Positions 52,692 through 55,640 of a stretch of 57,084 nt of DNA are shown one piece after another. Source of the DNA: an uncultured Robiginitomaculum sp. Lineage in GTDB: Bacteria; Pseudomonadota; Alphaproteobacteria; Caulobacterales; Maricaulaceae. Where the stretch lies: contig CALLVD010000008.1 in assembly GCA_938010385.1 (NCBI GenBank), forward strand, positions 1 through 57,084, given 5' to 3'. Position 1 is the stretch's first letter. Every line of letters begins with the position of its first letter. Under the pieces are notes generated by a model, which was not told the DNA's origin, searched no databases, and saw only the letters and a program-made list of their open reading frames with translations. A program made the translations under genes and the position numbers.

Positions 52692-53750
52692 TTAAACTTC
52701 CGCAGCCGACTCAATATCGAGTTCGGCATCATGCAGGCGGGTGAGTGTTTTTTCAATCTCTGCGTTAAAATCACTCTCGGCCAAGCTCATCGCAACGTTG
52801 ATGGCATTGGCGTAGCCTTTGGCATCCGTGCCGCCATGGCTTTTGACAACCACGCCGTTCAGCCCCAAAAACGCCCCGCCGTTAAAATTACGCGGATCAA
52901 TGCGCGCTTTCAGCCGGGAGAACGCCACAGCATTTATCAGCTTGGCAAGCTTGCCGAACACATTGCCGTCCAGCGCGTTTTTCACCAAATCCCCGATAAA
53001 TCGCCCGGTCCCCTCGGCCGTCTTCAGCGCAATATTGCCGGTAAAGCCGTCCGTGACAATCACGTCGACAGTACCGGTCGAAATGTCATTACCCTCAACA
53101 TAGCCGGCATAATTGAGGCCAAAATCAAGCTCTTGAAACCGCTTATGGGCCGCTTTAATTGTGGCCGTGCCTTTTTCCTCCTCGGTCCCGACATTCAGCA
53201 GGCCGACGGACGGCGATGATTTCTTATACAGCGCGCGGTAATAGGCTTCGCCGAGCACTGCAAATTCAGTCAGCTGCGTTTCATCACAATCAATATTGGC
53301 GCCGATATCAAGCACGATGCATTGCCCGCCCGCGCGCGGCCACACGCCGGCAATGGCCGGGCGCTGCACGCCCTCTTTCATGCGTAATTGCAGTTTTGAC
53401 ATGGCCATCAGCGCGCCGGTATTGCCGGCCGATATAGCCACGCGGGCCTCGCCGGCTTTGACGGCCGCAATGGAATTCCACATAGAGCTGCCCTTGCCGC
53501 GCCGCAGGGCTTGGCCCGGCTTTTCATCCATGGCCACCGCCTTGTCCGAATGCACGATTTCGCTGCGCGCTTTGGTCAGCGGCGCTTTTTTCAGAAGTTT
53601 TTCAATCGCGGCCTGATCACCGTGGAGCAGAAAGCGCGCGGCGCGGCTTTTGCCGTCCGTTTTTAAAAACCGCTCACAGCCGGCAATGACGATGCCGGGC
53701 GCGTCGTCCCCGCCCATGACATCCACAGAAATAATAACGCCTTCAAGCAT
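52692..53750 (-). CDS. plsX: Phosphate acyltransferase PlsX
   Basis: A 352-residue enzyme that converts acyl-ACP to acyl-phosphate for phospholipid synthesis. Family segments are ISVDVMGGDDAPG, SAGNTGALMAMS, GVWPRAGGQCIVLDIGANIDC, VDVIVTDGFTGNIALKTAEG and VVKSHGGTDAKGYANAI. It heads the plsX-fabH-ihfA-merR group. A GGGAG lies about 10 bases before the ATG. Confidence 0.97.
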   Translation of the reverse strand: MLEGVIISVDVMGGDDAPGIVIAGCERFLKTDGKSRAARFLLHGDQAAIEKLLKKAPLTKARSEIVHSDKAVAMDEKPGQALRRGKGSSMWNSIAAVKAGEARVAISAGNTGALMAMSKLQLRMKEGVQRPAIAGVWPRAGGQCIVLDIGANIDCDETQLTEFAVLGEAYYRALYKKSSPSVGLLNVGTEEEKGTATIKAAHKRFQELDFGLNYAGYVEGNDISTGTVDVIVTDGFTGNIALKTAEGTGRFIGDLVKNALDGNVFGKLAKLINAVAFSRLKARIDPRNFNGGAFLGLNGVVVKSHGGTDAKGYANAINVAMSLAESDFNAEIEKTLTRLHDAELDIESAAEV

Positions 53751-53814
53751 ATACAGCCGACTCCCTTTGCTGCGCCCTGTCTACAGCACGCGCGCCGGCC
53801 TGACTACCGCCAAG

Positions 53815-54342
53815 TCAGCCCGCGATAAAGGGCGCGAAGCTGACCTGTCGGGATTTTAACGCAGGCAGTTCCATAGCATCCACGCCGGCGTAGGATTGCG
53901 CGATGTAATCGCTCAGGGCGCGAGTAAAATCGTCGTCCCCGTCCGGCAGAAGATTGCTTTTTATCGTCTCCGTCAGTGACGCTTCGCCGTGCAGAGCCTG
54001 CGTATAGGCCTTCGTGCGCTCAAAAAACAGCGAGATCATCGGCTTGATGCGCCGGGAAATCCCGGTATCGGCCAGGCCCTCTTCGCGCATAGCGATATTA
54101 AAGTCCTGCACCATCACGTCATAGAGCGCTTGGTTAAGCTGACGGCCTTCGTCACCGAATTTTTGCGCCGCCGCCATAATTACCGTCATATGCAGGGTCA
54201 GAAGGTCGATGCGGCCGTTATAACTGTCATCAACCTTCCCGGCCCCGTAAAACGCCGGCAAGCGCGATTGCTTTAAGCATTCTGTGTAAAGACCGGCGGC
54301 AGCGATATCCTCGCCCCGGCGTTTGAAAAGCTTACCAAACAT
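53815..54342 (-). CDS. Ubiquinol-cytochrome c chaperone family protein
   Basis: A 175-residue protein of the CBP3/UQCC1-like family (GLYTECLKQSRLPAFYGAGKVDDSYNGRIDLLTLHM; MREEGLADTGISRRIKPMISLFFERTKAY). Relatives help assemble cytochrome bc1. It is divergent from bamE, a recurrent alphaproteobacterial arrangement. Confidence 0.92.
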   Translation of the reverse strand: MFGKLFKRRGEDIAAAGLYTECLKQSRLPAFYGAGKVDDSYNGRIDLLTLHMTVIMAAAQKFGDEGRQLNQALYDVMVQDFNIAMREEGLADTGISRRIKPMISLFFERTKAYTQALHGEASLTETIKSNLLPDGDDDFTRALSDYIAQSYAGVDAMELPALKSRQVSFAPFIAG

Positions 54343-54960: not shown

Positions 54961-54995
54961 AAAGCCCGGCCGCATATACGCGCCGGGCTTTTTTT
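54961..54995 (+). terminator. Intrinsic terminator after bamE
   Basis: AAAGCCCGGC and GCCGGGCTTT form a 10-bp stem with an 11-base loop, followed by a T-run. Confidence 0.88.
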
Positions 54996-55039
54996 GAGGG
55001 GTGAATCCCTGCCGGCTTCCGGCATCATATGCTCCCTTC

Positions 55040-55147
55040 GCTCATCCCGGCGAAGGCCGGGATCCAAGCGATTTCGCGGATGTCCCAAATTTGAACTGCG
55101 CTAATCGCAGGTTCGGCTTGGATCCCGTTTTTCAACGGGATGAGCGG
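55040..55147. repeat. REPIN-like element 1 (two inverted hairpins)
   Basis: Two 20-base hairpins face each other: ATCCCGGC-GAAG-GCCGGGAT (55044-55063) and ATCCCGTT-TTTC-AACGGGAT (55122-55141). They are flanked outside by GCTC and GAGC. Inside, GGATCCAAGC pairs with GCTTGGATCC, so the whole unit can fold on itself. Confidence 0.7.
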
Positions 55148-55327
55148 CGAGAGGCCGGTGCTTGAGCTGAAAACCCAGCGCGAAGACTTGAGGCGGGAAG
55201 TTTGGTGACCGGTACTTGGACCCTTCCAAAATAGGGGGTTCGATTGTCAGGCGTTGTCGGAGGAATATCAGATACAAGCAATTCACGCCTAAAAACCAGT
55301 CTGCCTTGGATATCCTATCTCAAATCC

Positions 55328-55432
55328 GCTCATCCCTGCGGAGGCAGGGATACAGTGGCGCGAATGATGTGTTGAGCTCTCCGGCCTCGATTTGGCCTCG
55401 CCACTTTACCCCTGCCTGCGCAGGGGTGAGCG
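55328..55432. repeat. REPIN-like element 2 (two inverted hairpins)
   Basis: Same architecture as element 1: ATCCCTGC-GGAG-GCAGGGAT (55332-55351) and ACCCCTGC-CTGC-GCAGGGGT (55408-55427), with GCTC/GAGC outside and AGTGGCG/CGCCACT inside. The arm bases differ from element 1 but stay paired. Confidence 0.7.
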
Positions 55433-55640
55433 GGTAATGGAGAGATTGTTCGAAATTACGATCCAATGTTATCGACACCAATTCGCTTCCGTCACTGTAT
55501 CCCTTTCTAAACTCGGAGCGCTCAAGTCTGCAGGCTTGGCGCAGTAGGCTCATACCCCCTCGATACAAGCCCCCTCTCACATTCCCCCTTGCATCCCTCA
55601 CCGCCTTACTGTAACAGCACGCTAACACAGTGAGACGGAT
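55433..55640. other. Intergenic region before yerC-like gene
   Basis: No gene is supported; the ORFs here are low-quality shadows. The stretch should carry the promoter of the yerC-like/his operon. No T-box, leader peptide rich in His codons or riboswitch was recognised. Confidence 0.45.

Follow-up and report, generated by a model that had tools for sequence, protein, structure and literature searches.

The window, i.e., the whole stretch of 57,084 nucleotides of an uncultured Robiginitomaculum sp. analysed here, contains four perfect hairpins (8-bp stem, 4-nt loop) at positions 55039-55432, which are arranged as two inverted pairs. Judged by their sequence, both units can be assigned, as REPIN-like dimers with the tag variant CGCTC, to the CGTC REP superfamily. 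They are probably non-autonomous elements spreading in the Robiginitomaculum-like lineage, with a small GIY-YIG nuclease as the most likely trans-acting partner. A candidate is, e.g., the 129-aa nuclease of contig 11, whose gene adjoins the same hairpins in the genome of the window. By themselves, the units are variants of repeats already described, and their interest lies in the link to the nuclease.

All four hairpins are paired at 8/8 positions with GCTC/GAGC outside, and each unit starts with CGCTC on the left and ends with GAGCG on the right (Table 1). Here, sequence and scans agree with the preliminary description, which had reported four hairpins in two inverted pairs of about 105 bases. 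A degenerate 27-mer hairpin model matched three of the four hairpins, with 0.00 matches expected in shuffled sequences. Folded as one long single-stranded DNA hairpin, unit 1 reaches -35.6 kcal/mol (z -6.6) and unit 2 -38.7 kcal/mol (z -7.9), values that were not equalled by any shuffle. The pairing of the inner sequences within each unit, also described beforehand, was found between CCAAGC and GCTTGG in unit 1 and between AGTGGCG and CGCCACT in unit 2. Units 1 and 2 are different subtypes, the former with CCAAGC tails and the latter with the tails ACAGTGGCG and AAAGTGGCG. The T run of a terminator was sought at the window hairpins without success, and for this reason a reading as terminators was rejected. 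An Rfam search returned sub-threshold chance matches only.

Table 1. Features of the bamE-yerC intergenic region, in positions of the window.
Feature	Position	Strand	Remarks
Stretch absent in the sister genome, bamE terminator to conserved yerC leader	54997..55587	.	approximate ends; both units, spacer, further sequence
Unit 1, REPIN-like inverted pair, CGTC-superfamily REPs, class A	55039..55146	.	108 bp; CCAAGC tails
Hairpin 1a	55044..55063	+	ATCCCGGC-gaag-GCCGGGAT; tag CGCTC 55039-55043, tail CCAAGC
Hairpin 1b	55122..55141	-	ATCCCGTT-gaaa-AACGGGAT (on the + strand ATCCCGTT tttc AACGGGAT); tag CGCTC (55142-55146 on -), tail CCAAGC
Unit 2, REPIN-like inverted pair, class B	55327..55432	.	106 bp; tails ACAGTGGCG / AAAGTGGCG
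Hairpin 2a	55332..55351	+	ATCCCTGC-ggag-GCAGGGAT; sequence scan
Hairpin 2b	55408..55427	-	ACCCCTGC-gcag-GCAGGGGT (on the + strand ACCCCTGC ctgc GCAGGGGT); sequence scan

The CGTC REP superfamily of Di Nocera, De Gregorio and Rocco (2013, PMC3733652) comprises small repeats that are widespread in alphaproteobacteria, and the dRS3 repeats of Neisseria are CGTC-1 REPs (PMC3733652). These repeats lack associated transposase genes, and whether an enzyme mobilises them, and which one, was not settled by the authors (PMC3733652). With the CGTC-1 REPs the window units share the 8-bp stem usually opening with AT, the 4-nt loop, the occurrence as inverted dimers, the alphaproteobacterial host and, in case of class A (unit 1) only, the CCA tail (PMC3733652), whereas unit 2 carries ACA/AAA in this position. 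The window stems correspond to those of CGTC family 1 (8 bp opening with A-T, 4-nt loop), one of the four opening with A-T followed by C-G. A difference is given by the tag, since all four hairpins carry CGCTC, which is not listed besides CGTC, TGTC and CCTC in the survey (PMC3733652). Since the nucleases of CGCTC elements are related to those of CGTC elements, we file the window units as a variant of the superfamily and not as strict members. Furthermore, we propose that a gene for an enzyme is linked to the repeats, whereas the survey found no associated transposase (PMC3733652). Similar to the REPINs of Pseudomonas with RAYT (PMC3116915), the units consist of two inverted REPs that form one long hairpin and are dispersed as a unit, but they lack the GTAG tag, and the RAYT gene of the window's genome has other flanking repeats.

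The genome of the window (G000) is a 2.05-Mb assembly of 119 contigs with 75% completeness. At least 24 such hairpins are dispersed over 12 of its contigs, mostly as inverted dimers of ~100 bp; a mirrored control pattern gave 0-1 matches. Dimers were located on C8 (two), C23, C48, C97 and C99, and contig 97 carries a copy of unit 2 with 83% identity. For 50 distinct hairpins of this genome and its relatives, selected with no condition on the inner three pairs, the inner three positions are paired in 48, 49 and 49 hairpins, compared to shuffle means of 22.6, 27.5 and 39.9, and each position shows 2-4 different Watson-Crick pairs. Because these values lie well above the shuffles, the compensation in the hairpin arms noticed at the window is real and general. 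The multiple copies, the covariation and the lack of both units at the corresponding site of the sister genome (see below) bear out the earlier view of mobile REPIN-like doublets under structural constraint. On contig 23 (L340 2040-2260), another palindromic repeat, CCTTCTCCC...GGGAGAAGG with CCCCTCATCCGCC, is situated between two CGCTC dimers.

Both units are intergenic and located between bamE and yerC-hisG. In the sister genome G004, whose HisG and BamE are 95% and 91% identical to those of the window's genome, bamE and yerC are adjacent as well, and ~590 bp including both units are missing there. No such hairpin was detected in the yerC loci of 29 relatives (94 kb). As far as can be judged from these sequences, a gain of both units in the lineage of the window would be the simplest reading, although at this site, as at contig 11 and gatA-gatB, divergence of the sister's intergenic flanks prevents exact junctions or target duplications from being read. 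Downstream of bamE, a terminator-like hairpin (window 54965-54995, GCCCGGC...GCCGGGC with a T run) is conserved in the sister genome. A class B dimer is common to both genomes at an orthologous site (L344 245-340, L148 279-375), where only one of its two hairpins has changed; therefore, class B predates their split. The tail CCAAGC occurs on 11 of the 24 hairpins of the window's genome and was not seen among the hairpins scanned in the sister, where the GIY-YIG element and the dimers carry CCAGAG-like tails; this comparison of tails covers a small sample.

The gene that actually sits among these hairpins encodes a GIY-YIG nuclease and not the RAYT assumed by the preliminary description. Contig 11 of the window's genome has an insertion, absent from the sister, with the complete 129-aa ORF, the final codons of which run into a CGCTC hairpin; a left hairpin was sought and not detected, only the right one. 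The tail of this element, CCAAGC, is that of unit 1. Conversely, the sister's own GIY-YIG gene is located between gatA and gatB and enclosed by two hairpins facing each other, whereas at this site neither gene nor hairpins occur in the window's genome, so that presence and absence of the elements are reciprocal. The contig 11 protein contains the Pfam GIY-YIG domain (E 1e-12), the active-site positions Y10, Y21, G23, R31, E68 and N87 are invariant in 12 GIY-YIG sequences, and among solved structures UPF0213 proteins come closest. A cognate nuclease matching the class B tail in unit 2 was not found in the incomplete genome of the window. Contig 12 carries another, diverged GIY-YIG gene (53615-53881, L399) that has no hairpins at its flanks and a similar gene in the sister; it is possibly a housekeeping member.

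Relatives were searched with the contig 11 protein and one protein of the CGTC clade, and their loci were scanned for hairpins within a near zone (200 bp upstream and 250 bp downstream of the GIY-YIG ORF) and a far zone (the rest of the same loci). Near and far zones contained 37 hairpins in 13.5 kb versus 6 in 74.8 kb (2.74 and 0.080 per kb) in the first order sample, 16 in 9.0 kb versus 5 in 41.2 kb (1.78 and 0.12 per kb) in the second order sample, 21 in 12.6 kb versus 6 in 68.8 kb (1.67 and 0.087 per kb) in the class sample, and 48 in 13.5 kb versus 11 in 71.4 kb (3.57 and 0.154 per kb) in the phylum sample. The density next to GIY-YIG genes is thus 15-34 times higher (p 9e-9 to 2e-28), and in control runs the same scanner gave five matches in 570 kb of RAYT loci, none in 94 kb of yerC loci and, with a scrambled tag, two over all GIY-YIG loci. 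Adjoining hairpins were observed for 54 of 102 distinct loci, about half being without them, and for 37 of 78 genes in the family-to-class sample. In 37 of the 102 loci they occur on both sides, 24 of these with outward tags as in the window, and 22 of the 37 carry the same arms left and right (shuffled mean 3.3, maximum 9). The GIY-YIG family hence comprises genes bounded by matching tagged hairpins.

On the nuclease tree of the family-to-class sample, the tag (CGCTC or CGTC) changes once, compared to a minimum of 6 and a mean of 9.7 changes in shuffles. All three mismatches between host and tag follow the nuclease, namely two members of the window's family with CGTC and one member of another order with CGCTC. 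No match to the GIY-YIG query was obtained in G075 and G076, which contain 6-10 REPs. The correlation at genome level, for which the GIY-YIG cut-off was set after the data were seen, is not decisive because Y1 genes correlate with REP abundance as well.

We infer an enzymatic mobilisation comprising recognition, cleavage and copying with single-strand specificity, which might proceed as follows. When DNA becomes single-stranded during replication, repair or uptake, the tagged hairpin would form, and the nuclease would recognise tag plus hairpin and nick the hairpin. Repair or recombination could then copy the segment between the hairpins elsewhere, whether or not it contains the nuclease gene. 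Since GIY-YIG enzymes cleave DNA by hydrolysis but do not join ends by themselves, copying would need host functions. It is tempting to speculate that CGTC REPs of the Pseudomonadota in general are nuclease-driven, i.e., that a GIY-YIG enzyme instead of an HUH transposase drives REPIN spread and that tag and enzyme co-evolve, but we propose this broader statement only tentatively. If true, REPs would be mobilised in a second way that differs in its chemistry, and the linkage suggests that REPINs arose with two unrelated enzyme chemistries. Due to the phylum-wide linkage, the co-evolving tags and the presence/absence pattern of the sisters, the enzyme question left open in 2013 becomes directly testable biochemically.

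A search of the available literature for a link between GIY-YIG enzymes and REPs found nothing. Ssn proteins, reportedly described in Nature Communications in 2025, are said to be GIY-YIG nucleases of Neisseria and other organisms that act site-specifically on single strands, with a repeated target in Neisseria. Both systems pair small GIY-YIG proteins with a repeated sequence; the Ssn work reportedly concerns ssDNA cleavage and transformation, whereas we connect the nucleases with CGTC REPs and the spread of REPINs. This connection may overlap with that work.

As another explanation, the hairpins could be RNA or DNA signals maintained by the host, i.e., terminators, mRNA stabilisers or supercoiling sites, and would then lie close to GIY-YIG genes because both insert into the same intergenic hot spots. 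The intergenic position of both units between bamE and yerC-hisG and the stability of the hairpins are in agreement with this, but it seems unlikely, given that the units are missing at the same site of the sister and hairpins at the yerC loci of the 29 relatives, that no T run is present, and that matched left and right arms and co-evolution of tag and nuclease are unexpected of independent regulators. Alternatively, REPs could be insertion targets of homing-like GIY-YIG elements that enter pre-existing hairpins, REP spread being caused otherwise. Known homing nucleases are found among GIY-YIG enzymes, and a gene enclosed by two hairpins resembles a REPIN into which a gene was inserted. However, the empty sites of the sisters at gatA-gatB and contig 11 are devoid of any hairpins, so gene and hairpins are absent together, and we regard this order of events as quite improbable.

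The dependence on a RAYT transposase, as put forward by the preliminary description, would make the Y1 (HUH) transposase of contig 33 the enzyme that moves the units in trans. Such a RAYT-like gene indeed exists in the window's genome (E 4.5e-13; 79.9 bits against NF047646 with a cut-off of 80), so that the search for it, like the genome-wide copy count, did not contradict that description. A CGCTC hairpin overlaps its stop codon (L018 1271-1303), and since the stop codon lies inside the hairpin, the C-terminal residues are REP-encoded; the sister gene has a different end. Y1 transposases are also enriched in REP-rich genomes (10 of 19, versus 9 of 61 REP-poor genomes, p 0.0016). However, the 93%-identical RAYT gene of the sister lacks this hairpin, and an ordinary insertion of a REP is therefore its best interpretation. 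The contig 33 gene is associated with this lone hairpin, in the window's genome only and with its upstream flank cut by the contig end, and not with flanking cognate REPs. Among 80 RAYT relatives from named genomes, none is flanked by CGTC hairpins (five matches scattered over 570 kb). The flanks of these genes carry repeats of the AATTACGGTGACAGT type instead, and their core GTGACAGT is situated beside 52 of 80 loci at 13 times the surrounding density. The repeats taken as the RAYT's own are GGTGACAG. Several REP-rich relatives are without a Y1 match, among them the near-complete genomes G005 and G029. For these reasons (none of the 80 flanked, other repeats at the flanks, sister gene without hairpin) the RAYT was rejected as the main partner, and its action on the units is unlikely. 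In the flanks of this RAYT lineage (L220-L299), inverted repeats of the type AATTACGGTGACAGT(N)ACCGAAAC represent the candidate cognate repeat.
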